Origin: Curtanaerobium respiraculi
Lineage (GTDB): Bacteria > Actinomycetota > Coriobacteriia > Coriobacteriales > Eggerthellaceae
DNA: 64,000 nt
Assembly (NCBI RefSeq): GCF_024609215.1
Contig: NZ_JANIPD030000042.1
Location: 1 to 64,000, forward strand
Direction: 5' to 3'
Made by a program: the position numbers and the translations under genes. The notes under the pieces were generated by a model. That model was given only the letters and a program-made list of their open reading frames with translations. It was not told the origin of the DNA and searched no databases. Of the stretch, positions 14,317-57,423 are shown in pieces; positions within the stretch are counted from its first letter, which is position 1, and each line of letters opens with the position of its first letter.

Positions 14317-14343
14317 TCTTTGCACCTCCTCCTGCGTATCCGG

Positions 14344-15324: not shown

Positions 15325-15326
15325 GC

Positions 15327-26429: not shown

Positions 26430-26453
26430 ATCCGTGTGCTCCTCGAATAGAAG

Positions 26454-26484: not shown

Positions 26485-26504
26485 GTCATCTGCGTATCGG
26501 CGTG

Positions 26505-28415: not shown

Positions 28416-28517
28416 GTTTACCTCCTATTAGCAGAAGAAGCCTGATCAACACCGGGGGAACTGCATGCGAGAGTTTTCCTCCCTTTCCGGAACAATCCAT
28501 CCCACTGGCTGACCGCC

Positions 28518-28601: not shown

Positions 28602-28681
28602 TAGATTGTTTCAAGCCGAGCTTTTGCGATTTGAAGAAGCCCGGGAAAAGAGGCTAGAAGCAACCAGGGAAAGAGGGGCCT

Positions 28682-30082: not shown

Positions 30083-30355
30083 GGATCATCTTCGTAAACA
30101 GCTCTCCATGCAGGGCGAATCGAACAACAGATCCCAACCCGGATCAAACCGCCATCATCAGTTTCACGGCCTCGGACAAGCGTCGCGGGAGATACGTGTT
30201 GTAGATGCATCAGGCTGGAAAGAGACACGTTACCCTAGCCGATTTAAATGCAGACACGCCCTGCCCGCCCCGCTGCAGGTGGGGCGCAAGTTCCCTTCCC
30301 CGCGGTAACCGGGTAGAATGATCGCATGGGTCCAAAGCGACGAGAGGAATTCCCC

Positions 30356-30523
30356 ATGAAGAAATACGTCTGCGGAGTATGCGGCTACATTTACGATCCC
30401 GAGCAGGGCGACTCCGTCCGCAACATCGAGCCCGGCACGGCGTTCGAAGACCTTCCCGACAGCTGGCGCTGCCCGTACTGCGGCGTCAAGAAGGACCGCT
30501 TCAAGCCCATCGAAGACGAATAG
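30356..30523 (+). CDS. Rubredoxin
   Basis: A 55-aa rubredoxin, a small one-iron electron carrier of anaerobes. The four ligands are Cys6, Cys9 (CGVCGY) and Cys39, Cys42 (CPYCGV), with the conserved YIYDPEQGD and aromatic core. Start ATG at 30356 follows GAGAGGAATTCCCC; an in-frame ATG ten codons earlier has no site. It is alone on its strand. Likely partners are a superoxide reductase or flavoprotein elsewhere in the genome; none is adjacent. Confidence 0.96.
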
Positions 30524-30761
30524 CCCTGGAGCGAGCGGGCGCGCAGGCAATCGAGCCGCAGGAAGGCGGGTCTCTGCGAGTCGCACGCTACCCTGAATCA
30601 CAGTCGCAGGTCAAGGCATACCCATATACTCCCAGTTATCCTTCAGCCGGCATGGCATACCGGGTTCTGGCCTGCAACGCTCGAAAGAAGGCCTGCTGCT
30701 TCATGCGGAGACCTCCGGCCGCCCTCGCTCGACGCATCTTCGCCGAGGGCATCCCGTAAAA

Positions 30762-30795
30762 AGCCGGACCGGGAACTTGTATTCCCGGTCCGGCT
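30762..30795 (-). terminator. Rho-independent terminator of the EF-G-like gene
   Basis: A perfect 14-bp stem (AGCCGGACCGGGAA at 30762-30775, TTCCCGGTCCGGCT at 30782-30795) with a 6-base loop. Read leftward it is followed by TTTTTACGG, a U-run, so it terminates the leftward EF-G-like transcript 110 bases beyond its stop codon. Confidence 0.85.
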
Positions 30796-30904
30796 ATCGA
30801 GGTTCACCTCTTCATCGGCGCGGTCCCCTTCGTCCTTCGCACCACCGAAACGGAACGCAGCCGAGGAATTACGATCCGAGTACCGGAGCACTCCCAGAAG
30901 CGGT

Positions 30905-37254: not shown

Positions 37255-37330
37255 GGGGCATTAGCTCAGCTGGGAGAGCGCATGACTGGCAGTCATGAGG
37301 TCAGGGGTTCGATCCCCCTATGCTCCACCA
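37255..37330 (+). tRNA. tRNA-Ala (anticodon GGC)
   Basis: A complete 76-nt cloverleaf with encoded CCA. Acceptor arms GGGGCAT and ATGCTCC pair with one G-U; D-arm GCTCAGCTGGGAGAGC; anticodon stem CATGA/TCATG with loop CTGGCAG, anticodon GGC; T-arm AGGGG-TTCGATC-CCCCT. It is followed by a region of gene fragments, consistent with use of its 3' end as an integration site. Confidence 0.97.
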
Positions 37331-42099: not shown

Positions 42100-43023
42100 G
42101 TGGAAAAACGAACCGGAAGTAAATCGGGGTCTCTTGGCATCGGAATTTTAGCCGCAGTCGTTTGTTCGTTGTGGGGTCTTACGTTCGTCTCGTTCACTGT
42201 AACGCTGAGGTATTTCACCCCAGCGCAAATATTGTTCTTACGGTGTTGTATCGCATATCTCTCGATGTGGATTGTATATCCGCATTTTCACCGGCATACG
42301 AAACTCAAGATCGAATTGTTGTTGTTGGCCGCAGGCTTGTGCGGAACCACGTTGTACGTATGTTTGAGCAATACCGCGCTTCTGTACACGGCGACGTCGA
42401 ACGTTTCGGTTTTGTCTTCTCTGTCGCCGATATTTACTGCGTTGTTTGTGCCTCTGTTTATGCGTGGCTCGAAGATTTCCGGTCGTGTCATCTTCGGATT
42501 CTTGGTTGCAACGGTGGGCGCCTCAATCGTGTCGACAGGCGGACATTTCGAATTCGATGCCCAGCTCTTTGGTTGCTTGCTTGCAATAGGAAGTGCAGCC
42601 TCCTGGGGCATTTACACAAACATCCTGCGTCTACTGAAGAACGAGTGCGATTACTCGCAGAACTACATTACACGTCGCGTTATGGGCTATGGCGTTATCA
42701 CCGTTATTCCCGTCATGCTGATTCAGGGCGTTCCTATCGATACAAACGCATTCTTTAATCCCGAAGCCGTTCTCAACTTGTTGTTCCTTGCCTTGGTTGC
42801 GCAGACATTCTGCCATGTGGGTTGGGGACTTGTCGCTCGCAAGAAAGGTTCAGTCTGGGCGAGCCAATTTACTTACATTACGCCGATCGCCACTATGATC
42901 GGGTCGGCTTTTATCTTGGGTGACGTCATTACTGGCATCATGATTGGCGGTACGGTGCTTATTCTCTTAGGCGTCATGGTTTCTGATGGCACCGTTATCA
43001 AGAAGTTGATGGAAAAAAGTTGA
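42100..43023 (+). CDS. DMT superfamily transporter (EamA type)
   Basis: A 307-aa inner-membrane carrier with ten hydrophobic segments in two homologous EamA halves (ILAAVVCSLWGLTFVSFTV, LSSLSPIFTALFVPLFM; CLLAIGSAASWGIYTNIL, ASQFTYITPIATMIGSAFIL). Family members mostly export metabolites, including purine nucleosides and amino acids. A GTG start follows GAGAGGGG. It is the first gene of the rightward operon of the molybdenum hydroxylase island, 147 bases before the hydroxylase. Export of the hydroxylated product or import of substrate is plausible. Lower GC content than the flanking core genes supports lateral origin of the island. Confidence 0.88.
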   Translation: MEKRTGSKSGSLGIGILAAVVCSLWGLTFVSFTVTLRYFTPAQILFLRCCIAYLSMWIVYPHFHRHTKLKIELLLLAAGLCGTTLYVCLSNTALLYTATSNVSVLSSLSPIFTALFVPLFMRGSKISGRVIFGFLVATVGASIVSTGGHFEFDAQLFGCLLAIGSAASWGIYTNILRLLKNECDYSQNYITRRVMGYGVITVIPVMLIQGVPIDTNAFFNPEAVLNLLFLALVAQTFCHVGWGLVARKKGSVWASQFTYITPIATMIGSAFILGDVITGIMIGGTVLILLGVMVSDGTVIKKLMEKS

Positions 43024-43170
43024 CTCTGACATCTGATGGGGAAGAGCAGTTCTCCGACGTGAACAAATAAATCTAAAAGGTATCGGCAACGGGCACATCT
43101 GGACTCCAAAGCAAGTACACCCGTTCATGAAGGCGCAATCAATCCGTTTGCTGAGTGGAAGGATCGAATA

Positions 43171-46041
43171 ATGGTAATGTTTACGGTCAATGGAGAATCG
43201 TACAGTTATGAACCAGCAGAGGATGAGAAACTCAGCTTGCTCGATTATCTGCGTAACGACTTGCATCTGACGGGAACAAAGCGCGGATGCGAAGAGAGAG
43301 TCTGCAACGCCTGTACCGTTCTTATCGATGGGAAGGCAAAAAAATCATGCGCTACATTCATGAAGGACATGGACGGCAAGAACGTCGTCACTGTTGAAGG
43401 GCTTGAAGCTGCAGACGGTACGCTCGACCCGCTACAAGATGCCTTTATCGAGTATAATGCAGTGCAATGCGGGTTCTGTACGCCTGGTATCCTAATGGCG
43501 GCGAAGGGCTTACTCAATGAAAAACCCGATCCAACCGAGGATGAGATTCGAAAGGCTCTGCGGCTGAACTTGTGCCGCTGTGGTACGTATCCGCGTGTCG
43601 TCATGGCGGTGCAGAAGGCAGCTGCAGTCATGCGCGGGGATGAAGCGCCGGTGTATCATCCGTTTGATCTTTCGACGAGTAAGGAGAGCTTCATCGGCAA
43701 ATCCATTCCTCGTCGCGATCTTCCCGACAAGGTGACGGGCCGTACGAGATTCTATGCTGACATGCAATTCGACAACATGCTGTATGGAAAAGCCGTCTAT
43801 GCGGAATACCCACATGCGAAGATTCTGTCTATTAATACGAAACCCGCGTACGATGTTCCCGGCGTCGTGCTGGTTCTGACAGCGAAGGATGTTCCGGGGA
43901 AGAACCGCTTCGGAGTGCTTTGCCCTGACCAGCCGGTGTTTTGCGATAAACGTGTGAAATATATTGGCGATACCGTAGCGGTTGTGTTCGCCGAATCGAA
44001 TAAAGCTGCCGAAGAGGGCGTAAAGAAAGTTGAAGTCGAATACGATGAACTGCCTGTTATCGGCAGTATCGAAGAAGCATTGGCGCCGGATGCTGTGCTG
44101 ATTCCCGACATCGACAATCCCCCGCATCCCATGGCATTTATCAGCGGTGAGAGGGGTAACATCTGCAAAGACGTGAAATTGCACCGTGGAAATGTTGACG
44201 GGGAGTTTGCGAATTGTGCTGCCATTGTCGAGGAGTCGTACGTTACCCAGCGGCAGGAGCATGCGTGGATAGAAACGGATGGTGCCATCTCCACGATTGA
44301 TGAGGATGGCAAGATCACGGTGTATGCACCGAACCAGAGCCCATTTGCCGATCGCGACCAGCTCGCGGCAATCCTCGGAATGGACGTGGACGATGTGCGT
44401 ATCATTCATATGCCCGCAGGCGGCGCATTTGGCGGCAAGACGGAGCTGACCACGCATGCACCCTGTGCCATTGCAACGCTTAAGACGGGCAGACCCGCGA
44501 GCATGGTTCTTTCCCGTAGGGATTCTCTGCGCACTCATCCCAAGCGGCATGGTTACAACATGACATACAAAATTGGTGCGGACGAAACGGGCAAAATAAA
44601 AGCGATGACCGTGGAGATCACCTCCGATGCTGGAGCGTACGCAAGCTGGAGTCCGCGTGTTCTCGAGCAGGGGCTCAGCTACTGTACAGGTCCGTATTAT
44701 GTTCCGAACTTAAATCTCCATCTCCAGGGTGTCTATACGAACAATATGATCGCTGGCGCTATGCGCGGGTTCGGTGCCATCCAGAGTCATTTTGGCGCAG
44801 AATCGGCGATTGATAAACTCGCTGAAGAACTGAACATGGATCCGTTGGAGTTGCGCCGCGTGAACGCACTCGATCGCAATCTGCCCATGACGACAGGCCA
44901 ATATCCCAACACGCAGGGCATTGACTACAAGAATACGATCAAGGGAGCCCATCGCCTCATCGAAAAGCTCAATCCGAAGCTTACAGCAATGCGCGCAGAA
45001 GGAAAAATCGTAGGGTTGGGCATCGCCAGCGGTTGGCGAAGCGTTGCAGGTGGATTGGGTCCAGCAGAAGTTGCAGGTGCAACCTTCACGCTCAAACCCG
45101 ACGGTCGCGTGTTTTTTGGCATTGCGTGCACCGAGATGGGACAAGGTTCGCATACTTCTTTGGCTCAGATGGCAGCAGAAATAACGGGTATAAGCTGGGA
45201 CGACTTCGATATTTGTGCTGGCGATACGCAGAAAGTGCCGTACGGTGGAGGAGTCATGGCATCTCGCGGCGTGTATCTGTGGGGTCATCCAACCATAAAA
45301 GCTGCCGAGCAATTCCGCGAGGACCTGGTGGAAGCTGCAGCGTCGCTGTTGAACATCGAGCAAGATGCCATGAAGTTGGAGAACAGCACGTTCGTCTCCA
45401 CAGAGACGGGTGATAAGCTTCTGACTTTGGTAGAGCTTGCGAGTAAGCTGAAAGACCCCCTCTCGGTTACGGTCGATTTCGAGTTGCCCAAGAGCAATCC
45501 CGTTGCCGAAAACACGAACGAGGACAATCATATCCCAACTTCTGAGTATAACCCACATCAGACTGTTTCGTACAATACCACCATTGCTGTGGTTGAAATC
45601 AATCCGGAGACGGGCAAGGTCACGATTCCTTACATGGGTGCCGTCGTCGATGGCGGGCGCATCATCAATCCCGATGCAGCTAAGCAGCAAATTGAAGGCG
45701 CGCTCATTATGGGAACAGGCTACGCGATGACGGAGAACTTCAAAGTCGAAAATGGCATCAATGTCACGAACAGCCTGGGCAAGGTAAAGATACCCCGCTT
45801 CGACAACTATCCGCCGAACCTCGAAGTGCACTTTACCGAGGCGACGGACCAGACTGGGCCTTTCGGATCAAAAGGTATCGCAGAGGTTGCAGTACTCACA
45901 CCGGCCCCTGCTGTCTGCAACGCCATTCACGATGCCGTGGGCATCCGCATCAACACATTGCCAGTTAACGACCATCTCGAGGAGATCAAGTATGCCGCTA
46001 AGAAGATTCTCGCGTACAACCAATCCAAAGCGGTTAAATAG
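43171..46041 (+). CDS. xdhD: XdhD-like molybdenum hydroxylase, fused Fe-S and Mo subunits
   Basis: A 956-aa xanthine-dehydrogenase-family enzyme, the length I recall for E. coli XdhD. Residues 1-75 carry a plant-type [2Fe-2S] cluster (Cys40, 45, 48, 60) and 76-150 the second one (Cys100, 103, 135, 137). From about 165 to the end lies the molybdopterin domain: GGAFGGKTELTTHAP (near 417), AMRGFGAIQSHFGAE, EMGQGSHTSLAQMAAEITG (near 652), and GPFGSKGIAEVAVLTPAP near 898 with the likely catalytic Glu. There is no FAD domain and no FAD subunit gene nearby, so electrons must pass to another acceptor. Genes yqeC, mocA-yqeB and xdhC follow directly, marking it as a selenium-dependent type hydroxylase. 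Purine is the family's usual substrate, but this one is not proven. Confidence 0.88.
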   Translation: MVMFTVNGESYSYEPAEDEKLSLLDYLRNDLHLTGTKRGCEERVCNACTVLIDGKAKKSCATFMKDMDGKNVVTVEGLEAADGTLDPLQDAFIEYNAVQCGFCTPGILMAAKGLLNEKPDPTEDEIRKALRLNLCRCGTYPRVVMAVQKAAAVMRGDEAPVYHPFDLSTSKESFIGKSIPRRDLPDKVTGRTRFYADMQFDNMLYGKAVYAEYPHAKILSINTKPAYDVPGVVLVLTAKDVPGKNRFGVLCPDQPVFCDKRVKYIGDTVAVVFAESNKAAEEGVKKVEVEYDELPVIGSIEEALAPDAVLIPDIDNPPHPMAFISGERGNICKDVKLHRGNVDGEFANCAAIVEESYVTQRQEHAWIETDGAISTIDEDGKITVYAPNQSPFADRDQLAAILGMDVDDVRIIHMPAGGAFGGKTELTTHAPCAIATLKTGRPASMVLSRRDSLRTHPKRHGYNMTYKIGADETGKIKAMTVEITSDAGAYASWSPRVLEQGLSYCTGPYYVPNLNLHLQGVYTNNMIAGAMRGFGAIQSHFGAESAIDKLAEELNMDPLELRRVNALDRNLPMTTGQYPNTQGIDYKNTIKGAHRLIEKLNPKLTAMRAEGKIVGLGIASGWRSVAGGLGPAEVAGATFTLKPDGRVFFGIACTEMGQGSHTSLAQMAAEITGISWDDFDICAGDTQKVPYGGGVMASRGVYLWGHPTIKAAEQFREDLVEAAASLLNIEQDAMKLENSTFVSTETGDKLLTLVELASKLKDPLSVTVDFELPKSNPVAENTNEDNHIPTSEYNPHQTVSYNTTIAVVEINPETGKVTIPYMGAVVDGGRIINPDAAKQQIEGALIMGTGYAMTENFKVENGINVTNSLGKVKIPRFDNYPPNLEVHFTEATDQTGPFGSKGIAEVAVLTPAPAVCNAIHDAVGIRINTLPVNDHLEEIKYAAKKILAYNQSKAVK

Positions 46042-46110
46042 CTGGAACTACGTATTGCTAGCGATTATTTGCACTGCGTAAACGCCGATTATACGTAACA
46101 GTTCGGAGCT

Positions 46111-46163
46111 GCGACGGCATTTCATCTCATCGAGGAATAGTGCAAAGGGGTGAATGCCGTCGC
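46111..46163 (+). promoter_or_regulatory. Hairpin between hydroxylase and maturation genes
   Basis: GCGACGGCATT (46111-46121) and AATGCCGTCGC (46153-46163) form an 11-bp stem with a 31-base loop in the 176-base gap between xdhD and yqeC. There is no U-run. It may partly terminate or process the operon mRNA so that the enzyme is made in excess over its maturation factors. Confidence 0.5.
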
Positions 46164-46217
46164 CTAGAAGGGCATGCGTTGGATGTGTTCGCGGCATAGA
46201 AAGGCAGGAGGTATGCA

Positions 46218-46934
46218 ATGTCCAAGGCGCTTTATGAACTGCTCGGAATTGGTAAGCACGATCTCGTCTCCGTGACGGGTGCGGGCGGTAAGACGACTAT
46301 GGTTTATTTGCTTTGCGACGAGCTTGCAACAACTGGCCGCAATGCCGTGGTTTCGACGACAACCCATATGCAGCGCCCGAAGGAGTTTAAGGGTGCAGTT
46401 GTCGTCGAACAGAACCCTGCTGCCGCAGCTGTAGCGGTCAGGGCTATCGGCAATAGACGGACGTTTGCTGCCTCGGAGAGTGCGGCCGGGTGCAAGGTGA
46501 AGGGGTTCGATGGCCCCGGCCTTGACCTGATGCATGCCGTGCTTGACAACTCCACCATACTAAACGAGGCAGATGGCGCAGCAATGAGACCGTACAAATT
46601 CTACAGGGCAAACGAACCGGTCATTCCCCAATCGACCACGCTGATCATCCATGTGATTGGGTGTGAGACGTTCGGGGAGGCAATGAATGATACCTTGTTC
46701 CATCGCTGCCCTCCCGACAAGGTGGGGCGAGTTTTCGATGAGGCGGAGTTTACGGAGCAGTTGCGCTGGTTTAGAGACAACAAGCTCGCTCCGTTTCATT
46801 GCCGCAAGGTTCTCGTTGTCAACAAGATCGATGGTGGTCGTGAAGAAGCTGCGTATTGCATGCGCGACATCGGCCACTCTTATTTTGATGCGTGTCTGGT
46901 CACATCGCTCCATGAAAGACGGTGGGAATCGTGA
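46218..46934 (+). CDS. yqeC: Selenium-dependent molybdenum hydroxylase accessory protein YqeC
   Basis: A 238-aa P-loop protein: LVSVTGAGGKTTMVYLLCDE at residues 16-35, STTTHMQRP, and NEADGAAMRPYKFY in the centre, then VLVVNKID. These match the YqeC family (TIGR03172 type), found only with selenium-dependent molybdenum hydroxylases together with YqeB and SelD. It is thought to help insert labile selenium in the Mo cofactor. GGCAGGAGGTATGCA precedes the ATG. Its TGA overlaps the ATG of the next gene (TGATG), indicating translational coupling. SelD itself is not in the window. Confidence 0.88.
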   Translation: MSKALYELLGIGKHDLVSVTGAGGKTTMVYLLCDELATTGRNAVVSTTTHMQRPKEFKGAVVVEQNPAAAAVAVRAIGNRRTFAASESAAGCKVKGFDGPGLDLMHAVLDNSTILNEADGAAMRPYKFYRANEPVIPQSTTLIIHVIGCETFGEAMNDTLFHRCPPDKVGRVFDEAEFTEQLRWFRDNKLAPFHCRKVLVVNKIDGGREEAAYCMRDIGHSYFDACLVTSLHERRWES

Positions 46935-48304
46935 TGTATGCGATGGTGTTGGCAGCTGGATTGTCATCGAGGATGAAAGAGGAAAAGCTGCTGTTGCCAC
47001 TCGAAGAGCATACCATTCTCGAGAGGTCGTTGGAAACAGCGAGTCGGCTCTGCGAAAATGTTCTTGTGGTGACCAAGCCCAAAATCGCTGCGGACACTGC
47101 ATTTCCGGAAAACGTTCAGGTAGCAATCAATGAAACCCCCGAGGCGGGACTTGCGTCTTCGATCACCGTAGGCATCGCATGGCTTAAAGCCAACGCACCA
47201 GAATGCGAGGGCGTTCTCATGCTCTTAGCCGATGAGGTTTCAATCAGAATGAACGTTGCTTACGAGGTAATGGAGAAGCTGCAAGGTCGATACGACGCGA
47301 TTATCGCAGTGAGCTGCAATGGCAAAATTTGTCATCCCGTTGCATTCGGCGCTGCATGGTTTAATCAGCTAGCGGCCTTGAAGGGCGACAAAGGCGGGAG
47401 CCAGATCCTAAAAGCCTATCCTGAGTCGGTCGAGTACGTAGAGGCGGATGATGAGGGCGATGTGGACATCGACACGCAAGAAGACTACTTACACGCAGTG
47501 TTGCAGCACCGTAAACTGGTGCTTGTACGGGGGGCGGGCGATATCGCGACCGGCTCGATACATCGACTGCACGAGGCTGGTTTCCTAGTAGCTGCGATGG
47601 AGATAGCGCACCCGACCGTTATCCGTCGTAAAGTTTCGTATGCGCAAGCACTGCTGTCGGGTGAGTGCATCGTTGAAGGGCAACGGGCGGTTCTGTGCGC
47701 CACACCCTTCGACATGGCAAAAGCGTTCGGGCAGGGTGAGATTCCCGTGTTCGTCGACCCTGATGCGGTATTAGTGACAAAACTGAGACCGGATGTTGTT
47801 GTCGACGCAATACTAGCCAAGCGTAACCTGGGTACGACAATCGATATGGCGCCAGTGGTCGTGGGACTAGGTCCCGGATTCACCGCCGGCGTAGACTGCC
47901 ATGCAGTGGTGGAGACGATGCGTGGTCACACGCTCGGAAGAGTTATTTACGACGGGAGTGCCATTCCCGATACCGGTATCCCCGGGAATATCGGGGGATA
48001 CACCAAGGAGCGGGTGATGCATGCACCTGCATCGGGCGTTGTGAACTTGATGCACGACATCGGCGACTATGTCGAGTGTGGAGAATGTCTAGCAATGATA
48101 GGCGATACGCCGTTGACGGCGAGCCTTACCGGCTATCTGCGCGGGATAATCGCGGATGGAAGCGAAGTATGCCAAGGTTTGAAGATGGCCGATATCGATC
48201 CGAGAGACGTCTACGGACACTGCTTCAGTATATCCGATAAAGCTTTAAGCATCGGCGGCGGAACGCTCGAAGCGGTCATGCATCTCCTGCATTGCAAGAT
48301 GTGA
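46934..48304 (+). CDS. MocA-type nucleotidyltransferase fused to YqeB
   Basis: A 456-aa two-domain protein. Residues 1-190 are a MobA-like nucleotidyltransferase (MYAMVLAAGLSSRMKEEKLL, LASSITVGIAWLK, HPVAFGAAWFNQL, VDIDTQEDYLHAV) as in MocA/YgfJ, which adds CMP to molybdopterin. Residues 195-456 are the YqeB/EF2563 family (LVLVRGAGDIATGSIHRLHE, TIDMAPVVVGLGPGFTAGVD, DTGIPGNIGGYTKERVMHAP), tied to selenium-dependent hydroxylases. The usual LGD(Q/M)P motif of MocA is replaced by LLADEVS, which could alter catalysis. The start at 46934 overlaps the yqeC stop. In E. coli these functions are separate genes, so the fusion is noteworthy. Confidence 0.85.
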   Translation: MYAMVLAAGLSSRMKEEKLLLPLEEHTILERSLETASRLCENVLVVTKPKIAADTAFPENVQVAINETPEAGLASSITVGIAWLKANAPECEGVLMLLADEVSIRMNVAYEVMEKLQGRYDAIIAVSCNGKICHPVAFGAAWFNQLAALKGDKGGSQILKAYPESVEYVEADDEGDVDIDTQEDYLHAVLQHRKLVLVRGAGDIATGSIHRLHEAGFLVAAMEIAHPTVIRRKVSYAQALLSGECIVEGQRAVLCATPFDMAKAFGQGEIPVFVDPDAVLVTKLRPDVVVDAILAKRNLGTTIDMAPVVVGLGPGFTAGVDCHAVVETMRGHTLGRVIYDGSAIPDTGIPGNIGGYTKERVMHAPASGVVNLMHDIGDYVECGECLAMIGDTPLTASLTGYLRGIIADGSEVCQGLKMADIDPRDVYGHCFSISDKALSIGGGTLEAVMHLLHCKM

Positions 48305-48325
48305 CTGGGAAAGTGGAAAGTCACT

Positions 48326-49348
48326 ATGTCTATGTTGGTTGATGAAAGACCGGCCGTTCGCAATGGCTGCGAAAGGAGTGTCGTGCCAACTGAACTTCGC
48401 AACATGGAAACGACTTCGAATTTCATGCAGATTGGGTCGGGCAGACATGGTTCGTACGTGACTCTTAATAGCTGCGTACATAAGAATGCGGTCGGATCAG
48501 CGCCTTTGCGCAGTTTCGAACCCATAGAGCAACGAGCACGTGAAGCGCTCGTTTCAGGACAGGATATCGTAACCGCTCGAATCATCGAGACGAGGGGGTC
48601 GGTGCCGCGGCATCGAGGCACGTCGATGCTGCTTGTGGAAGATGGATCGAAATTCGGTACCGTAGGCGGTGGCCGCATCGAATCGCTCATCGAACGTATA
48701 TGCCGGGATACGTTTCGCGAACGAGAATCGTGGCATGTCTACGATGTTGGCGTCAGCTCGCATATCAATGGACAGCGCGACAACAGCGGTGGATCGGTGA
48801 AAATCCTTGTCAGATATTACAGCAAGGAGCGCCCGTTCGAGTACGATGAAATGCCTTTGCCTGTAACCACAGCATACATTTTCGGGTGTGGCCACGTAGG
48901 GAGTGCATTGGAGCCTGTTCTTCGGAGTATCGGTTTCGATATAGTCATGGTCGACGATCGCGAGAGCATGGTAAGTCGTGACAAATTTCCTTTTGCGACT
49001 CAGGTATGGAAGGTTCCTACGCTTGAACATGGATTGGATATGGTTGAGCTCAATGAATTCAGCTACGTGTTCCTGATGGGCTACAAACAGGAGAAGAACC
49101 TTGGTCTCTTGCGCGCTGCGCTGAAAAAGCCGCACGCTTATATTGGCTTGCTCGGAAGCCGCCGGAAAGTTGCATCGATCTTTCGGATGTTGGAAGAGGA
49201 AGGCATCGACGTCTCCACTGATAAGACCGTTCACGCACCAATAGGTGACTACATTAAAGCGGAAACGCCAGCGGAGATTGCAATCAGCATTGCTTCCGAG
49301 GTCATACGAGTACGTGCCGAACTTCTGCAGAACGGCTGCTCGCATTGA
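48326..49348 (+). CDS. xdhC: XdhC family sulfurylation/insertion chaperone, first copy
   Basis: A 340-aa XdhC/CoxI family protein, last gene of the rightward operon. The CoxI domain (VTARIIETRGSVPRHRGTSM, FGTVGGGRIESLIERI) begins near residue 75; the C-terminal Rossmann domain has AYIFGCGHVGSALEPVLRSI, VMVDDRES and AYIGLLGSRRKVASIF. XdhC binds Moco, promotes its sulfuration (or here selenation) and inserts it into the hydroxylase. The N-terminal ~65 residues are not conserved; GTG at 48383 after GAAAGGAG is an alternative start that would shorten it by 19 residues. A second paralog is encoded at 51343-52179. Confidence 0.88.
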   Translation: MSMLVDERPAVRNGCERSVVPTELRNMETTSNFMQIGSGRHGSYVTLNSCVHKNAVGSAPLRSFEPIEQRAREALVSGQDIVTARIIETRGSVPRHRGTSMLLVEDGSKFGTVGGGRIESLIERICRDTFRERESWHVYDVGVSSHINGQRDNSGGSVKILVRYYSKERPFEYDEMPLPVTTAYIFGCGHVGSALEPVLRSIGFDIVMVDDRESMVSRDKFPFATQVWKVPTLEHGLDMVELNEFSYVFLMGYKQEKNLGLLRAALKKPHAYIGLLGSRRKVASIFRMLEEEGIDVSTDKTVHAPIGDYIKAETPAEIAISIASEVIRVRAELLQNGCSH

Positions 49349-49445
49349 TTGAGGTCGAATGCGTCTTCACTATACGAAGTGAAAGTTTTCCTCATCGGAG
49401 TGAAAATTCATTCCAGTATTCCTGCTAGAGAAGCGATTGCCGGGG

Positions 49446-50987
49446 CTATTTTTCGTCGATGGTGTAGAACCGATTCATAGCGTCCTCAAGCGTCGTGTAG
49501 AACGATTCTGTCTCTTTGTTGTCTTGATACGTTATTAGGCTGACCACGATCATGACGACGGTCGATGCGAGCAGCCCGATGGTGCCATACCACACGTTGC
49601 CCATATCCCATACAGCGTACGTCATAATCACGAGTGCTGTTCCTACAAGGGTGGCGGCAATCGCTGCCTGTTTAGTTGCATGCTTCCAGTACAATGCGCA
49701 TACCATGACAGGAAATAGGGGCATTACCAGGGCTATGGAAAACATGATCAGTGTGAATATCAGCTGTGGGGGATTGATAGCAATCAACGTTGATGTCGTG
49801 CCAAGAATGATAATGATGATACGTCCAATAATTTTCTCGCTTTTTGGGGTGATATTCAGGTGAAATGTGTTTTTCAGCAAATCTGACTCTACGATGGCCG
49901 AAGAAACACCTAAAAACGCATTTGCCGTGGAAAGACCGACGGCGGTTGCCCCCACGAAGAACGTCAACATCAGGAACACTGCAAGTGGCGGGTTGGCATC
50001 GAACACAATGTTGTTGATTAGATAAGGGATTATCAGTTCGCTTTCGCTGCTGGTCATTCTGTCAACAAGCGCCAAGCCAATAAGCCCTATCAGCATGGTT
50101 CCCGTCCATACGAACACCTGTAATACGGGCGTGGCGAAGGACAACCTGCGCTGAGAATGCAAGCTGTTGCCGAAGTATCCTGATCGAACGAACACGTGCG
50201 GCAGCATGATGGTCCAGCCTATTGCGCAGGAAAACGGATAGCCGAAACGGAATGCGTACGTGGTTGTGCCTGAAGGTCCCGGGTACGAGAAGAATCCAGC
50301 AGTGTTGGGGTTGCGCCAAATCGTTTGCAACGCCTCGTTGAGAGAGCCATGGAAACCGACGACCAGGCAGGAGATAGCGATGACCCAAAGGGCTGCTATG
50401 AAGAACAGTCCTTGAATGGTATCGGCGAACGCGGCGGATTTCATACCGCCAATGCATACAAATACGGTCATTGTAATGCCAATGACCACGACGGCATTTG
50501 CGTAACTAATGGCTCCGCCTGTCGCATATTGTGCCGCCTGAGAGATGGCGACGAGCACTGAGGCGATGTACGGAAACGAGCAGGCGAGGAATACCAGTCC
50601 GAGTATGGTGCGAAGCGCTGGGCTTTTGAATCGTTCGTAATAAAAATCGGATGGGGTGATAAGCTTTCGACCTTTTTGCTGATTGTAGGCCCATACCTTG
50701 TTCATAGTGAAATGGGAGATTACCGGGAACAGACATATGTAACTCAGTTCCGCTACCCAGTAGCCTAACCCGTTGCGGTAATACGCACCAGGGCCGGCAA
50801 AGAAAACCCAAGTGCTCATTAATGATGCGAGGTAGGTCATGATCAAAACAGGCCAAGGGACAGTGGCGGTAAGCAAATTGCCGCCGTCCTTTCGTTTCCT
50901 ATCCCGTACAGTGACGTACGCAGCCACGCTCAGGAGAAAACAAATATAAAGAGCAAATGTTACCCAAATCGTTGTGGAACTCAGCAT
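49446..50987 (-). CDS. Sodium:solute symporter family transporter
   Basis: A 513-aa membrane protein with about 13 helices of the SSS family (PF00474): WVTFALYICFLLSVAAYVTV, MTYLASLMSTWVFFAGPGAY, SYICLFPVISHFTMNKVWAY, VFVCIGGMKSAAFADTIQGL (the family signature region), and TFFVGATAVGLSTANAFLGV. It is probably a Na+-coupled importer. It is last in a leftward operon behind a second xdhC and a small membrane protein, so its substrate is likely that of the molybdenum hydroxylase (a purine or other heterocyclic acid), by inference from context only. AATGGAGC precedes the ATG. It converges with the rightward operon. Confidence 0.88.
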   Translation of the reverse strand: MLSSTTIWVTFALYICFLLSVAAYVTVRDRKRKDGGNLLTATVPWPVLIMTYLASLMSTWVFFAGPGAYYRNGLGYWVAELSYICLFPVISHFTMNKVWAYNQQKGRKLITPSDFYYERFKSPALRTILGLVFLACSFPYIASVLVAISQAAQYATGGAISYANAVVVIGITMTVFVCIGGMKSAAFADTIQGLFFIAALWVIAISCLVVGFHGSLNEALQTIWRNPNTAGFFSYPGPSGTTTYAFRFGYPFSCAIGWTIMLPHVFVRSGYFGNSLHSQRRLSFATPVLQVFVWTGTMLIGLIGLALVDRMTSSESELIIPYLINNIVFDANPPLAVFLMLTFFVGATAVGLSTANAFLGVSSAIVESDLLKNTFHLNITPKSEKIIGRIIIIILGTTSTLIAINPPQLIFTLIMFSIALVMPLFPVMVCALYWKHATKQAAIAATLVGTALVIMTYAVWDMGNVWYGTIGLLASTVVMIVVSLITYQDNKETESFYTTLEDAMNRFYTIDEK

Positions 50988-51095
50988 GGTCTATGCTCCA
51001 TTACCTTCGCACTCGTGCGCATGTGCTTGTGTTTAAACTGAGAAAGAAAACATTGTCTGACCATCAGCATCTACGACATCATGATGTCGTAGCAC

Positions 51096-51317
51096 TTATT
51101 TCGCTTTGTGCGGGACCTCGTTGTCCTTTAACTTGTAGATACGGCATACTTTCACAAGACCAATGTAAACAGCGGTCCATAACGGGATTATGGTCGCCAA
51201 AGCATAGATGATGGTTGGTACAGCCTGGCCGTAGGGAGGTAGGCCAGGGATATTGAAGACCGCGTACAACACGATAACCGCTGCCAGCCAAATTTTTTCC
51301 GTTCTTGTGACTTTCAC
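51096..51317 (-). CDS. Small two-helix membrane protein, probable symporter companion (DUF3311-like)
   Basis: A 73-aa protein: KIWLAAVIVLYAVFNIPGLP, PYGQAVPTIIYALATIIPLW and TAVYIGLVKVCRIYKLKD. Two membrane helices linked by a Pro/Gly turn recall the small DUF3311/YhdT-type proteins encoded just before sodium:solute symporters such as PanF. GTG start at 51317 without a strong ribosome site, 25 bases after the upstream xdhC stop, suggests coupled translation. Family assignment is by size, topology and context. Confidence 0.7.
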   Translation of the reverse strand: MKVTRTEKIWLAAVIVLYAVFNIPGLPPYGQAVPTIIYALATIIPLWTAVYIGLVKVCRIYKLKDNEVPHKAK

Positions 51318-51342
51318 AACTATTTATCGAATCGCGCCCGTG

Positions 51343-52179
51343 TTACAACCGATTGCCATGCCCCGACCGAACCCTAATCATTTGTGCGGCTATGCTAATG
51401 GCAATCTCTTCAGGTGTTTCTGCGAAGATTCTTTCTCCGATGGGTGCATATACGGTTTGCAGTGCATCTTCGCTTACTCCGTCCCGGCGTAGCATATCGA
51501 ATATGGTTGCAGTTTTCTTATGGCTTCCAATCATGCCTATGTAGGCATGATTTTGCTTCAACGCGCTTTTCAAAATGGCGTAGTCTCCTTTATGCCCGCG
51601 CGTGACAATGATGATGTAGGTGTTCTCGTCTGTCGTGATAGTGCGAAAGCCGTCTTCGTACGAATCGATTACTACCACGTCTTTTGCGTGAGGGAAGCGA
51701 TCGTGGTTTGCGAATTCTTCTCGATCGTCGAGCACGATAATATTGAACCCGATGTAGCGTAAAACCGGGTCAAGCGCTAATCCCACATGCCCCGCTCCAA
51801 AGATAAGGGCAGTTTCCTCTAATTGCATAGGCAATTTGAGTGCATTGGGGTTGTCAGCTGAGTAGTATTCGATAAGGATGTCAACCTCTCCACCGCATGC
51901 CATATCCAACGCCTCTGTGTCTAGTCCATCTAGATTGAAGTGGCAAAGATGGCTTTTTTCCTTGGTCTTGAAGGTCTTCATGCACTCTTCGGTAGTTTTC
52001 GCTTCGAGCAAACCGCCACCGACGGTGCCCCAGTTCCTTCCATCGGCAACGAAGGCCATTGTGGCACCATTGTGGCGCGGCGACGACCTGGCACTCACTG
52101 TCTCCACTATCCGCGCGACAACGACGTCGTAACCTTTCTCCAGCTTCTCGTACGCGCGATACGCGGCGTTGTTCTTCAC
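51343..52179 (-). CDS. XdhC family chaperone, second copy
   Basis: A 278-aa XdhC/CoxI family protein: VVVARIVETVSARSSPRHNG, WGTVGGGLLEAKTTEECMKT, ALIFGAGHVGLALDPVLRYI, IVLDDREEFANHDRFPHAKD and HAYIGMIGSHKKTATIFDML. It is first in the leftward operon with the small membrane protein and the symporter. Compared with the 49-kb copy it lacks the long N-terminus. Two different XdhC proteins next to one hydroxylase suggest a second client enzyme elsewhere or separate sulfur and selenium steps. GTG start at 52179 follows GGGGGCGCTCA. Confidence 0.88.
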   Translation of the reverse strand: MKNNAAYRAYEKLEKGYDVVVARIVETVSARSSPRHNGATMAFVADGRNWGTVGGGLLEAKTTEECMKTFKTKEKSHLCHFNLDGLDTEALDMACGGEVDILIEYYSADNPNALKLPMQLEETALIFGAGHVGLALDPVLRYIGFNIIVLDDREEFANHDRFPHAKDVVVIDSYEDGFRTITTDENTYIIIVTRGHKGDYAILKSALKQNHAYIGMIGSHKKTATIFDMLRRDGVSEDALQTVYAPIGERIFAETPEEIAISIAAQMIRVRSGHGNRL

Positions 52180-52527
52180 TGAGCGCCCCCATCCTTAAGT
52201 GAGTTCCTCCTATTGGAATCTAACTATGCCATGAGGTGGGATCAGGTGAAAACCACGTTCGTATGAAGAAAAAAGATGCCAGTTGAATCAAAAGATGAAT
52301 TCTTTGTATCCTCTAGGGAACGGCAACTGGTATCAGTGAGAAGCAGTAGGGGAAATCGCTTACCGATGATTTGCGATGCTGTCTTGGGCTATCGTATCCT
52401 CCTGCTTGATATTGGTATATTTTACATCTTGAAGATTTCAGTAGTGTTTTACGAGCATTGCATCAGGGGTTGCAGAAGTATCTTTTGCTCTTTGAAATAA
52501 GGGATGAGCGATAAGGGGGCAAGTGCA
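52180..52527. other. Divergent intergenic region in the hydroxylase island
   Basis: About 350 AT-richer bases between the leftward xdhC operon and the rightward regulator. It should contain both promoters and perhaps the regulator's operator. A TTGATATTGGTATATTTTAC stretch at 52407-52426 is promoter-like. No clear long palindrome or riboswitch is seen. Confidence 0.4.
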
Positions 52528-53910
52528 ATGGGCGCTTTCGGGAAATGCTGCAAGGAGATAATGAACAAATACGGATTGAAATATCGCATCATCGCAAATG
52601 CGGTCGGATACGACGTATCATACATTAGCAAATGGGTTAATAACGACATACTGCCTGCCGCGGCATCGGCAAGAGACATCTGCTCGCTTATTGCAAAAGT
52701 GGCATCCGATTGCGAAGATGGGAATGATGATAAGAAACACGAACAGCATGATAAGTTGTTCCATGACCTGTACAACGCATACGAAGAGGATGAGCAGCGG
52801 TCTACGAGAGGTGTTCCCGTTACCGAACGGGGAGTGTTCGATCGGAAGACGGCCATCTTCGACCGGCTGAAGGATCTCCGCAAGGCAACCGATGTCTGCA
52901 AGTTGACAATGTTCGTCGATTTAAAAAATCTGGACAATGGTGAGCTTATTTTCCTTATTGACGTCGCCAATTATATCCGCGACTTGCGTTTCGATAGCGG
53001 TGGGATTTATGTGCTGCTGCCGGAACTCGGTTTGGACGGCATCGAGAACGGAAAGACCCTTGTTGCCATTATCAACCTGTTTATGGTCCAATCGCATGTA
53101 AAGCTGTATTGCTATTGTGCCCTGGTGTCTCAGTTCGGCATGGTCTTGTTGAGCGACCAATTCTTATATTCTGCCCAGTGTTGGGCGCATAAGTGCTGGT
53201 TGCATGAGGCAATATGCGACGATGTCTCCTTGGCGGTAAACGCGCTAAATCGAGAAATCATGCCCACGGCGACCGAACTGTTCCATTGCATCCCAATCGG
53301 GCATACCGAATCCGTAGAGTGCTCGGACGCTCTTTTTTGGCGAGCGTACAGCTATCAGTTGCTGGGAGTGTTGGGAACACAGTTCTGCAGCGACGAACTG
53401 CTTGCAAACATTACACATAACATGGATGCCGACACGGCGCAACGATGTGAATCGCAGCGTAATAGCCATGTATGCGCGCTTGATGCAGGCGAGCAGATAC
53501 AGTGTTTGATCTATGGATACGCGATGCACTCGCTCGTTTATGATGGGTCCATTTTCGCAGGGGGTAAGTACATCGTGCTCGGCGCACAACAGCGTTTGCA
53601 GTATCTTTATGGTATGTGGAATATGATACAGCAATACCCGAACCTGCAAATCAGGGTAACTGGGGACTATATAGTTCGCGACGTCAAGCATCGTTTTCTT
53701 CCTGTTGTTCTATTCGATGCTCGAGGATGCTGTTTTCTGACATTTCCCGTAGACAAGCAATCGGCTGTCTGCCAAGTGAAGAACAGGGGGTTTCGCAAGT
53801 CGATCGAAAACGGGTTCTCCAATCTTTGGAAAGGTGACAACCTGACTGTATACGATTTCGAAGAAATGTTTTCCGAGTATCTTGACGAATGTGAAGCGGG
53901 TCTGCTGTAG
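52528..53910 (+). CDS. XRE-type HTH regulator with an unrecognised sensor domain
   Basis: A 460-aa protein. Residues about 8-60 form a helix-turn-helix (MNKYGLKYRIIANAVGYDVS, YISKWVNNDILPAAASARDI); an acidic linker (NDDKKHEQHDKLFHDLYNAY) follows. The remaining ~350 residues are unrecognised: one segment is FVDLKNLDNGELIFLIDVAN, another is cysteine-rich (KLYCYCALVSQFG, SAQCWAHKCWLHEAICDD), and the end reads FEEMFSEYLDECEAGLL. No membrane helix is obvious, so it is probably a cytoplasmic ligand-sensing regulator of the adjacent hydroxylase operons. ATG at 52528 with AAGGGGG eight bases upstream is preferred over ATG at 52504. Function as regulator of the island is inferred from position. Confidence 0.7.
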   Translation: MGAFGKCCKEIMNKYGLKYRIIANAVGYDVSYISKWVNNDILPAAASARDICSLIAKVASDCEDGNDDKKHEQHDKLFHDLYNAYEEDEQRSTRGVPVTERGVFDRKTAIFDRLKDLRKATDVCKLTMFVDLKNLDNGELIFLIDVANYIRDLRFDSGGIYVLLPELGLDGIENGKTLVAIINLFMVQSHVKLYCYCALVSQFGMVLLSDQFLYSAQCWAHKCWLHEAICDDVSLAVNALNREIMPTATELFHCIPIGHTESVECSDALFWRAYSYQLLGVLGTQFCSDELLANITHNMDADTAQRCESQRNSHVCALDAGEQIQCLIYGYAMHSLVYDGSIFAGGKYIVLGAQQRLQYLYGMWNMIQQYPNLQIRVTGDYIVRDVKHRFLPVVLFDARGCCFLTFPVDKQSAVCQVKNRGFRKSIENGFSNLWKGDNLTVYDFEEMFSEYLDECEAGLL

Positions 53911-55316
53911 CCATTGACTGTGCACCGAATGTTGATGTCACTGGCGGTGTTATACGTGGAATGGCCGCTACCTAGAATCGCTGATGGAGGCGAAACGATT
54001 CGGTGAAAGGGCAGCGACTACCTTTAGACGCTCTACTCGAAGATATCTCCGCCCATAAGGTCTGAGACGATCGATATTGACCAGATTCTGCATCGCTAGC
54101 TTGAGCTGGTAGTGAACACGATTGTGGACATCTGACCCGACGAAATCCTTGGCGAGAGCAACTGCCGCGACGACTGCTATGAGCACAACTCTGCTACTAT
54201 CGTAGGCGAGATAGCCATGTTCCACCCCGAAGTTCCGGGGTGGAACATGTTTTCCTGACGAGTTAAGCGAGCTGTACTCCCGCGCCGACCATACAGTGAT
54301 TGTCATCGTAAAAAAGTCTAGATTCTAGATGCGGGGATTACCCATGCACCGGGTCGACAATGCAACCGACGTACTCAAACCTGTAAGCCTCAGCACGTTG
54401 CGCGCGGTACTTGGGACTGATCCTCGAATAGCAAGACAAAGTCAAAATGAACGCGCTCACGCGTCTCGACTTTCCGTACGAGCAACCACATTTACCTGCA
54501 CTCAACAATATTCAGACGCGCGTCAGCGAGGAGATAGGACATTGCAGCAAGGTGATCGGGATGTTCCAGTCCTTTAAGAGCTGATGCGGCCAGTCGGTTC
54601 GGTGCCAATCAGAGTGAATGGAGAATGGATCGATGAGTTTCATAGTTGCTGGCGCGCTCAAGGATATTGCACGCAAGAGCGAGGGTGCGAAGCCGCTCGA
54701 AACCGAAAGTCGCCGAGAAAGCCGAGGCGTTCATCCTCACGGCGATTGAGCTCAAGAGAAGGATTGCGTGATGTGTGCGATAGGAATCCTGGCCACGGTC
54801 GCTGCCACGGACTGTGCGTACTTTTGTTCGCTCAGGGCGTGTCCCGAGAAGCCCTGTTGCTAAGATTTGACGTATTACGCGAAGCGGAGCGCCTGGATTC
54901 TTTCGTCGCAGCTGTCCAGGCCAAGTGTATTTCGCTATGGCTTCATATCTCATGACGACACTACCTAGTTATCTCGTGGTAACCAATGTTTAACCAGACC
55001 GGTCACTGGCTTCAATGAAGCTGACGTTCTTATTACCTTATGGTTTGAGAATTCAGTTGATGTCATTTGATTCATAATGATGCATGGATTTCATGGCCCT
55101 CTTCTTCCCCGAGGCATTCAAAATGCACAGAAGTTAAAAACATCCGTCATCTTCAATCCGTCAGAGCCATCGTCCGTCATTTGAGGCTTGCATTTTTAAA
55201 TCAAGGGGTAATCCCGAGATTATCAAAAAGAACCTTGAGAAGTGAACATGGGATAAAGGGCACGCATGCTGGCACTGCCCTAGACATGAGTTCGTGCCGA
55301 CGCTTATGCAGTTGTT
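53911..55316. other. Degenerate region with decayed coding pieces
   Basis: About 1.4 kb without an intact gene. Protein-like pieces remain on the + strand: a 45-codon frame at 54447-54584 (MNALTRLDFPYEQPHLPALN, NIQTRVSEEIGHCSKVIGMF) and, from 54633, MSFIVAGALKDIARKSEG; after a frame change the same stretch reads EKAEAFILTAIELKRRIA. The frame changes suggest one or two genes broken by indels. No family is recognised. The stretch from 54955 to 55316 is AT-rich and shows nothing. Confidence 0.5.
54216..54253 (+). terminator. Strong rho-independent terminator
   Basis: A perfect 14-bp stem (CATGTTCCACCCCG, loop AAGTTC, CGGGGTGGAACATG) followed by TTTT. It is about 300 bases after the regulator gene with no intact gene between, so it either ends that transcript or survives from a lost gene. 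Confidence 0.8.
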
Positions 55317-55590
55317 CTAATCGGCTTGCCCGATCTCTTTGAGATGGCCCGGCCGGTGGTTTCCCGGCAGGGCCGGCTCGTACGGCCTGCCCTCCTTCAT
55401 GAGCCCGAGGCACACGCCCATCAGCTTGCGTGCCGCGCCGGAGAAGACGACGTAGTGGTGTTTTTTGTCAACCCTCTTCTTCTTGTCGTAGTAGTCGCCG
55501 AAGTAGGGGTCGTGCCCGCGAACGCTGTCCGCGGCCTGCATGAACGCCCGCTTGGCTCGAGGCCGAAGGTCCCCTCTGGTCTCCACAGGC
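55317..55590 (-). pseudogene. C-terminal fragment of an IS110 family transposase
   Basis: About 89 codons: [60 protein letters not shown] and [14 protein letters not shown]. The pattern '(R/K)G....R...(V/M)QAA.S..R.DP.F..YY..K' followed by 'ARKL.......L..G..Y' is the C-terminal part of IS110/IS1111 transposases (PF02371). The N-terminal DEDD domain and element ends are missing. It marks the right border of the low-GC island. Confidence 0.7.
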
Positions 55591-55805
55591 GTAACCTCAT
55601 TAGACATCCATCGCCGGACGACATCCTGCCTAATCCACGTCCGCCTGCGGGCCAGAGGCGCCTGCCTTTCTCGAAGAGCCGAACTTCTGGAACGAACACC
55701 AAGTGCCCTCCACCCATGCATGCCCTTTATCCCATATTTGCATTTATGGGAAAAGAGCGCGGCCGCTGCGCGAGAAGCGGCAGAAAGAATATAGGAGGAA
55801 AAATC

Positions 55806-55979
55806 ATGACAGCACCAACTATTAACACAGAAGAATGCATCGCATGTGGAGCATGCGCAGAGGTGTGCCCGAACGATGTGATCGTCGTCGAAGATGTGGC
55901 AAAGGTTGTCAACCCCGACGACTGCATAGAGTGTGGGTCGTGCATCGAGGAATGCCCGTCCGAGGCGATTACGCTCTAG
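55806..55979 (+). CDS. 2[4Fe-4S] ferredoxin
   Basis: A 57-aa clostridial-type ferredoxin, a low-potential electron carrier. Ligands are Cys11, 14, 17, 21 ([12 protein letters not shown]) and Cys40, 43, 46, 50 ([12 protein letters not shown]). AGGAGGAAAAATC precedes the ATG at 55806; the long frame reading in from 55326 is an artefact. It stands alone between an IS110 fragment and an inverted-repeat region. It is a candidate electron partner for enzymes in the window that lack their own acceptor, such as the FAD-less XdhD-like hydroxylase or the activase-like protein. Confidence 0.95.
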
Positions 55980-56430: not shown

Positions 56431-56511
56431 CTCGAGGTAAGCGATTTTCCGAAAGCGTTTTCCTTCGCTATCATGGAGCATCGAGCATCGAAAGCCTCAA
56501 AGGAGCTGTCC

Positions 56512-57423
56512 ATGGCAGAGAACAACCTCCCCGTACCGGATCCGGCCACCGCGGCCGACCATCCCGAATTCAACGCGTTCGTGGAAACGATTGCGGCGCT
56601 GCGCAGCCCGCAGGGCGGATGCCCCTGGGACATGAAGCAAACCCACGCCTCCATCGCGAAGAACATGATCGAGGAGTCGTACGAAACGGTGGCGGCGATC
56701 GAGGAGGGCGACGCCGGCCATATGCGAGAGGAGCTGGGCGACGTCCTCTTGCAGGTCGTTCTCCAAGCGCAGATAGCGGCGGACGCCGGCGAATTCACCA
56801 TCGACGACGTCGCGCACGACGTGAACGAGAAGATCGTGCGCCGCCATCCCCATGTGTTCGGAGCGCAAGCCGCCATGGCGGCCGCCGGGCTGACCGAAGC
56901 GGAGGTGGAGAACGCCCGCACCGCCGACGAGGTGCTCGACCTGTGGGAGGTGGTGAAATCCCATGAACGCAAGCAGAAAGATGCCGCACGGACGGAGAAG
57001 CTGCGCGCCGCGGGACTCGATCCGGATGCCCCGCGCGGCTTGCTGGAGGACGTGCCCCGCGGAGAACCCGCCCTGATGCGCGCGCAGGACATCTCGCGCA
57101 AGGCGGTAGGCGTGGGATTCGAATGGGAATCGACTGAGGACGTCTGGAGTCAGGTGAAAAGCGAGGTCGACGAATTCAAAGCCGCTCCCGAACGGAGCGC
57201 GGAAGCCGAGATGGAGTTCGGCGACGTGCTGTTCGCTCTGGTCAACGTCGCACGCCGGGAGCATATCGACGCCGAGACCGCTCTGCGCCGCAGCTGCGAC
57301 AAATTCTCGCGGCGGTGGGAGCAGATGGAAGCCACCGCCCATGCCGCGGGCTGCCGCATCGAGGACTACTCGACCGAGCAGCTGAACGAGCTCTGGAACG
57401 CGGCGAAGCGCGAGGTCGGATAA
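56512..57423 (+). CDS. mazG: Nucleoside triphosphate pyrophosphohydrolase MazG
   Basis: A 303-aa MazG that hydrolyses non-canonical NTPs. Two MazG domains are present: FVETIAALRSPQGGCPWDMK, QTHASIAKNMIEESYETVAA with the EExxE-type metal site (EELGDVLLQVVLQAQIA), and a second near residue 215 (WSQVKSEVDEFKAA.. and EMEFGDVLFALVNVARR). The start at 56512 follows AAAGGAGCTGTCC; the upstream frame to 56425 overlaps the inverted-repeat element and is rejected. Monocistronic, housekeeping. Confidence 0.95.
   Translation: MAENNLPVPDPATAADHPEFNAFVETIAALRSPQGGCPWDMKQTHASIAKNMIEESYETVAAIEEGDAGHMREELGDVLLQVVLQAQIAADAGEFTIDDVAHDVNEKIVRRHPHVFGAQAAMAAAGLTEAEVENARTADEVLDLWEVVKSHERKQKDAARTEKLRAAGLDPDAPRGLLEDVPRGEPALMRAQDISRKAVGVGFEWESTEDVWSQVKSEVDEFKAAPERSAEAEMEFGDVLFALVNVARREHIDAETALRRSCDKFSRRWEQMEATAHAAGCRIEDYSTEQLNELWNAAKREVG

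Follow-up and report, generated by a model that had tools for sequence, protein, structure and literature searches.

In a 64,000-nucleotide stretch of Curtanaerobium respiraculi DNA (Eggerthellaceae; contig NZ_JANIPD030000042.1, positions 1 to 64,000, hereafter the window), the interval from 42.1 to 53.9 kb holds nine genes, which open reading frames, Pfam and NCBIfam families and base composition resolve into two facing operons and a regulator. We tentatively propose, giving it a little under an even chance, that this island is an acquired module for a one-step biotransformation, i.e., import of a pyridine carboxylate, its hydroxylation by a molybdenum enzyme with a probable selenium cofactor, and probable export of the product. 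In such a module, a symporter of the SSS family and its 73-aa partner would import nicotinate or a related compound, e.g., N-methylnicotinate, and the hydroxylase would place a water-derived hydroxyl group on a ring carbon adjoining the nitrogen, while two electrons would pass through the 2Fe-2S centres to an acceptor of the host, no subunit carrying flavin adenine dinucleotide (FAD) being involved. The cytosine-dinucleotide form of the cofactor would be made by MocA and held and inserted by XdhC1 and XdhC2, YqeB and YqeC together with SelD would replace its terminal sulfur by selenium, and a DMT carrier would probably export the product. The rightward operon encodes, in order, the carrier, the hydroxylase, YqeC, a MocA-YqeB fusion and XdhC1; the operon facing it encodes XdhC2, the 73-aa protein and the symporter, and the regulator diverges from XdhC2. 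The features are as follows (GC3, GC content at third codon positions; pLDDT, the confidence score of a structure model).

42100..43023, + strand: EamA/DMT carrier, candidate product exporter (Pfam EamA, 92 bits, cut-off 28)
43171..46041, + strand: 956-aa molybdenum hydroxylase (Pfam; TIGR03311, 602 bits; tree; residues; model pLDDT 83)
46218..46934, + strand: YqeC, selenium-cofactor accessory protein (TIGR03172, 114 bits, cut-off 73)
46922..48304, + strand: MocA-YqeB fusion, with a C-terminal selenium-cofactor marker part (TIGR03309, 348 bits, cut-off 220) and a cytidylyltransferase-like N-terminal MocA part that stays under its cut-off (TIGR03310, 133 vs 186 bits)
48326..49348, + strand: XdhC1 (Pfam XdhC_C and XdhC_CoxI), in which Ser154 replaces the family cysteine
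49446..50987, - strand: SSS symporter, candidate importer (Pfam SSF; 67-69% identical to symporters of five nicotinate loci)
51096..51317, - strand: 73-aa symporter partner with a GTG start (51-56% identical to the small neighbour of the homologous symporter in 5/5 loci)
51343..52179, - strand: XdhC2 (Pfam), with the conserved CGG cysteine Cys95
52180..52503, no strand: divergent upstream region of the XdhC2 operon and the regulator, presumed from its position to be a control region
52504..53910, + strand: 468-aa regulator with an N-terminal helix-turn-helix and no known family (distant homologues)
55806..55979, + strand: 57-aa ferredoxin within the low-GC stretch of the island, possible electron acceptor (Fer4; GC3 0.62, island-like)

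A first-pass annotation of the window had listed eight of these genes, in two facing operons with a regulator. Every gene that it named was found, with its frame open, and the layout was as described; it had overlooked the gene for the 73-aa protein.

Selenium genes and the XdhC pair

The hydroxylase is likely of the selenium type, because YqeB and YqeC pass their curated cut-offs and selD is present in the genome. The first-pass annotation had proposed such an enzyme and had made the proposal depend on selD, which was found on contig 18 (L001:1399-2571; 363 bits, cut-off 125); a single TGA lies in frame in its N-terminal part, so that SelD is probably a selenocysteine form. A YqeB match is present in 13 of 80 relatives, the C. 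respiraculi genome included. Passages of the literature describe YqeB-type proteins as often fused to XdhC-like domains (PMC2276186) and name MobA-like, XdhC-like and hydroxylase genes as neighbours, some fused with the HP1 or HP2 of that paper (PMC2432076). In Carboxydothermus islandicus, one open frame likewise holds MocA and YqeB; given this frame and the published fusions of YqeB-type proteins, the MocA-YqeB fusion is no novelty.

The enzyme could instead be an ordinary N-heterocycle hydroxylase that bears sulfur, with YqeB and YqeC merely carried along or serving general maturation. We regard this as unlikely, if not lightly dismissed: selenium on molybdenum is predicted from gene content, SelD may serve selenocysteine, as the TGA within its own gene suggests, and, in the portion of the C. 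difficile study concerned, a yqeC deletion gave no clear phenotype (PMC11448449). However, parts of PMC2276186 report YqeB-type proteins only from genomes with selD and treat them as markers for that type of cofactor, and the only YqeB match of the C. respiraculi genome shares an operon with its only hydroxylase match at 1e-50.

The two XdhC proteins are 44% identical to each other. The conserved part of XdhC1 starts near residue 70, so its true start may lie further in. A cysteine in the CGG motif is found in XdhC2 (Cys95) and in 19 of 20 comparison proteins, which are a selection from the matches found (the twentieth lacks the motif where aligned), and XdhC1 has Ser154 at this position. What is said of this cysteine in PMC2997495 is that almost all XdhC-like proteins keep it, and it is left open there whether it is a sulfur carrier or a molybdenum ligand. 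The Cys/Ser pair bears on this very choice between a chalcogen carrier and a cofactor-binding residue. Moreover, an operon set comprising one hydroxylase, YqeC, MocA-YqeB and the Cys/Ser XdhC pair is a small one for probing selenium insertion, and a 2024 C. difficile paper calls the way in which selenium gets onto molybdenum, at least where it raises the matter, poorly understood (PMC11448449). Nonetheless, the asymmetry is known from one sequence, and simple decay of XdhC1 is the dull alternative.

Probable substrate of the symporter and the hydroxylase

The best clue to the substrate is the symporter pair. A scan of contigs with a YqeB alignment confirmed 588 stretches, of which the best 80 were kept with up to 10 kb on each side; among these 80, the symporter matched one, from Acetobacterium bakii (67%). 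In the order of A. bakii, both the symporter (67-69%) and the small partner (51-56%) were found in 5 of 67 genomes, and, among 391 genomes sampled evenly from its class, only A. bakii and E. aggregans had the symporter. All five loci contain a split S/L/M hydroxylase, a 500-aa ferredoxin-type reductase, which we take to be 6-hydroxynicotinate reductase, an amidohydrolase, a mutase and a PrpF-type isomerase, and four of them an aconitase-type dehydratase, the fifth stretch ending before its position; apart from the hydroxylase pieces, these genes were recognised by eye from the starts of their sequences. In E. aggregans, NdhL matches the PDB entry 3hrd (E 1e-286), the amidohydrolase matches the enamidase 2vun (E 3e-247), and the isomerase matches a PrpF-type model. 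The symporter had no relative among PDB sequences at E<=0.001, transport measurements for it did not turn up in the literature searched, and Pfam gave no match for the 73-aa protein.

This setting makes nicotinate, or else a methylated pyridine such as trigonelline, the probable cargo, and pyridine carboxylates rather than purines the likely substrate class. At the gene level, the symporter is thus a guess at how anaerobes import pyridine acids. A methyltransferase of the MttB superfamily lies, together with corrinoid-type proteins, in the E. aggregans locus (L155:2905-6558) and in the homologous loci of G170, G201, G203 and G220, and is a candidate demethylase of trigonelline (N-methylnicotinate), which a passage of PMC10805028 names as an aromatic methylamine that such methylotrophy might use, although it is not yet known to do so.

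The hydroxylase consists of two 2Fe-2S domains fused to the molybdenum domains, without a FAD domain, according to Pfam. It scores below the cut-off of every one of the 23 NCBIfam models that it matches, the best being TIGR03311 (Se_dep_XDH; 602 vs 830 bits). In a 67-row tree, from which eight rows (its own copy, duplicates, near-duplicates and one long row) had been left out, it joins two Chloroflexota enzymes, L129 and L140, both from the genome G173, with a support of 99 (starred) and 39-42% identity. In the residue alignment, made without its own copy L004 and two E. coli duplicates, Q389, F534 and E905 correspond to Q767, F914 and E1261 of xanthine dehydrogenase (XDH), of which we take Q767 to be a cofactor residue and E1261 to be the catalytic one. 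Both purine-binding positions are changed, with T424 at Glu802 and Q500 at Arg880; by these replacements, the enzyme is not a canonical xanthine enzyme. Its residues are compatible with a pyridine or another heterocycle, yet they do not settle the substrate.

The two sister enzymes likewise remain under the TIGR03311 cut-off (727 and 737 of 830 bits) and have Asn or Ile at the Glu802 position and Gln at the Arg880 position. They differ from the island enzyme in having Lys at the position of Tyr13M of nicotinate dehydrogenase (NDH) and in their surroundings, since the neighbours are other catabolic genes, and no symporter, regulator or YqeB match occurs within the surrounding 18-20 kb. Around L129 (locus L164), PreA (a dihydropyrimidine dehydrogenase subunit), a carbamoyltransferase and an aminotransferase exceed their cut-offs, and an SsnA-like deaminase, a glutamate-synthase-like small subunit, a second dihydroorotate-dehydrogenase-like gene and a nitrilase-like gene fall below theirs, which by its look is a setting of N-heterocycle (pyrimidine-type) catabolism. 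The genes around L140 (locus L166), for a thiamine pyrophosphate enzyme, a flavoprotein, a family-5 solute-binding protein and a protein of the dihydrodipicolinate synthase type, tell little. Together, the nicotinate genes beside the symporter pair and the pyrimidine-type genes beside L129 support the N-heterocycle substrate suggested in the first-pass annotation.

A purine module appears improbable on the available evidence. It would comprise a selenium-dependent xanthine/hypoxanthine hydroxylase as in purinolytic clostridia, with purines as the electron donor. TIGR03311 is the best model for the island enzyme, and the selenium-dependent XDHs that it describes (Enterococcus/Clostridium type) share the fused 2Fe-2S and molybdenum layout and the accessory genes YqeB, YqeC, MocA and XdhC. 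Growth of C. difficile on xanthine and urate needs YqeB, as told in a portion of PMC11448449, and a split enzyme beside the MocA-YqeB frame of C. islandicus is 31-50% identical to the hydroxylase. However, the cut-off missed by the island enzyme is passed by all seven tested members of the 19-row TIGR03311 clade, union with this clade was rejected by the approximately unbiased (AU) tree test (p 0.004; groups picked after a first tree), and the Glu and Arg that the island enzyme has lost are kept in 19/19 rows of the clade. Furthermore, no YgeX was found in the host genome at 0.001, and in the Pfam scan the transporter is of the SSS family and the island has no purine permease.

It is likewise doubtful, and no more probable, that the enzyme is an aldehyde oxidoreductase (AOR) whose carriers serve an aldehyde-derived or carboxylate compound. 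Its best solved relatives by sequence and fold are the Desulfovibrio AORs 1dgj and 1sij, which have the same fused layout of two 2Fe-2S domains and molybdenum domains and resemble its structure model at a TM-score of 0.85-0.91. The AOR maturation model NF045664, whose cut-off of 350 bits neither protein reaches, is the best match of XdhC1 (200 bits) and XdhC2 (299 bits), and, within the part of PMC5746545 that deals with them, aldehyde oxidases too have lost Glu802 and Arg880. Against this, the hydroxylase reaches 561 bits with the AOR model NF045668, about half of its cut-off of 1100, which the AOR-like row L016 passes (1225), in the tree the AOR-like rows form a clade of their own, and Gln389 is kept, whereas L016 and L026 differ there.

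A bolder variant of the proposal has a small chance of being right: the substrate may be an N-methylated pyridine carboxylate (e.g., trigonelline), brought in by a symporter of a type that in acetogens adjoins an MttB-type methyltransferase gene, which the selenium hydroxylase would oxidise in one step to a pyridone for export, and the split XdhC pair, with the cysteine in one partner only, would separate holding of the cofactor from transfer of selenium. Least probable of all is a dehydroxylase, working in the reverse direction on an imported hydroxylated heterocycle as electron acceptor, since, for all the reversibility of clostridial selenium xanthine dehydrogenases noted in a passage of PMC11448449 and the fold kinship of the hydroxylase with 4-hydroxybenzoyl-CoA reductase, the Pfam scan shows no added 4Fe-4S or other reductase feature and the symporter's kin adjoin oxidative nicotinate genes.

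Several observations weigh against the favoured proposal of a pyridine carboxylate. The NDH of the Eubacterium barkeri-type nicotinate-fermentation cluster belongs to the same molybdenum hydroxylase family, and such clusters share the symporter pair; unlike the fused island enzyme without a FAD part, however, it is split into S/L/M/F, with 31-44% identity by piece and a separate tree position. Joining the hydroxylase with NDH was rejected (AU p 2.8e-5; this group, too, was picked after a first tree), and the larger group of hydroxylase, NDH and TIGR03311 clade has a support of 92 (not starred) and a long branch. The three active-site positions compared are Leu, Arg and Tyr in NDH (Leu and Arg at the Glu802 and Arg880 positions in 3/3 NDH rows) vs T424, Q500 and R623 in the hydroxylase. 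R623, at the Tyr13M position, does count for the proposal, in that other nicotinate hydroxylases have Arg or His there, according to a section of PMC5746545. Arg in this place is nothing unusual, though, since 4 of 44 other, unrelated rows have it; the TIGR03311 clade has Lys, and the Carboxydothermus row is misaligned at this position. In all five symporter loci, the enzyme gene nearest the symporter is that of the MttB-superfamily methyltransferase, not NDH, so the cargo may be a methylated amine; the evidence for MttB is a TIGR02369 score of 268 of 525 bits in E. aggregans and a contig-end fragment in G201 (70% over 131 aa), the rest being by eye. Finally, the E. aggregans nicotinate cluster also holds a PTS_EIIC_2 protein, so nicotinate may be imported there by a protein other than the symporter, or by more than one.

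Foreign composition, probable insertion and the search for related islands

The island genes have a GC content of 0.48-0.55 and a GC3 of 0.55-0.62 vs 0.64-0.66 and 0.81-0.86 in the four flanking genes tested, in agreement with the lower GC reported in the first-pass annotation. Two other patches in the window, at 12000-16000 and 25000-31000, are also low in GC (0.52-0.57), so composition by itself is not special. The island lies within a 105.7-kb contig and is placed by its right-hand flank only, through synteny with the genus-mate (the sole other member of the genus among the genomes searched), in which collinearity with the window starts at mazG (56.5 kb) and continues to 64 kb. The tRNA-Ala gene (37255-37330) and mazG (56497-57423), 19 kb apart in the window, are adjacent in the genus-mate, so that the intervening region has been inserted or rearranged. 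The left neighbour, an ABC-F gene, is approx. 82% identical to the copies in the three family members compared. Matches to the hydroxylase at 1e-50 occur in 17 of 79 other relatives, none above 38% identity among the matches listed, and none was found in the genus-mate; no homologue of the regulator was found at 1e-5 in 137 other family genomes. Thus, the module seems to have been acquired horizontally, as the first-pass annotation had supposed from sequence alone: GC3, the weak hydroxylase matches in relatives, the absence of the regulator and collinearity with the genus-mate only from mazG all support this.

An empty insertion site was not recovered, as ABC-F and mazG were never neighbours in relatives among the matches listed; a G054 row that ran from ABC-F towards mazG as a candidate empty site was a spurious extension. 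At the right edge of the island, 55245-55738 contains 24-nt inverted repeats (92%) 446 nt apart, a possible remnant of an insertion element; the end of a reverse-strand open reading frame there presumably resembles an IS110-type transposase, and a Pfam search gave no match. Between the regulator and mazG, a strong 14-bp hairpin is followed by a T run (54216-54249). The tRNA was the only match in an Rfam scan.

A scan of genome contigs with the hydroxylase alone yielded no relative. Within the best 80 of 588 YqeB loci, matches at 1e-6 were found for the hydroxylase in 20, YqeC in 51, MocA in 26, XdhC in 32 and the symporter in one, and none for the DMT carrier, also at 1e-3, or the regulator. 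The hydroxylase had one match at 1e-150 in the 391 genomes of the class of A. bakii (34% identical) and matched 309 plasmid records at 1e-60, the best approx. 34% identical among the matches listed.

The statement in the first-pass annotation that the combination of transporters with two XdhC proteins appears undescribed was too broad: YqeB, YqeC, MocA-type and XdhC-type genes are known to cluster with such hydroxylases, at least in the portions of PMC2276186 and PMC2432076 that treat them, and YqeB-type fusions are in print. For the two transporters and for a natural Cys/Ser XdhC pair, no description was found in the literature searched. What looks new here is the separate enzyme lineage, the symporter pair tied to nicotinate loci, the apparent lack of a downstream path and the asymmetric XdhC pair, the parts being otherwise known. 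The island was also called self-contained, which is only partly right; selD lies on another contig, and a FAD subunit was not seen in the island or, at E<=0.001, in the genome.

Probable export, electron transfer and the regulator

MttB, NdhF (the FAD subunit) and YgeX, searched together with enamidase as four proteins joined into one query, had no match in the host genome at E<=0.001, and enamidase matched a 71-residue stretch (6e-4). For 6-hydroxynicotinate reductase, no full-length homologue was found in the host, the only match being a ferredoxin-like stretch of approx. 60 residues (3.5e-6). Because the tested genes of nicotinate fermentation are missing in the host, the DMT carrier probably exports the product, a direction inferred from its family alone, and the simplest reading is a single conversion step after which the product leaves the cell. 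Such compounds may thus undergo one oxidation and no breakdown. As no FAD subunit was found, the electrons must leave via another route; the 57-aa ferredoxin, 1.9 kb past the regulator, is our guess for the acceptor.

The regulator may control the module. The presumed control region, 52180-52503, had no motif of at least 9 bases in common with any other upstream region tested, and shuffled sequences gave more promoter-like sites than the real one (13.8 vs 10). The regulator itself has no Pfam or NCBIfam match, and its single-sequence structure model was unusable (pLDDT 31). Homologues were found in 2 of 391 genomes in the sample of the Clostridia-like class, in G333 (21-22% identical over most of the length) and G544 (34-35% over the helix-turn-helix), both with the same N-terminal helix-turn-helix; one distant homologue matches Pfam HTH_3. 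The genes after the homologue in G333, for a Glt_symporter and an amidohydrolase, fit a regulator of uptake and catabolic genes, and no more. A sparse family of long helix-turn-helix proteins of approx. 470-500 aa, whose C-terminal part has no model, is thus represented at L195:9527-11023 and L196:9358-10875, the L195 member having genes for a glutamate-type symporter and an amidohydrolase as neighbours.

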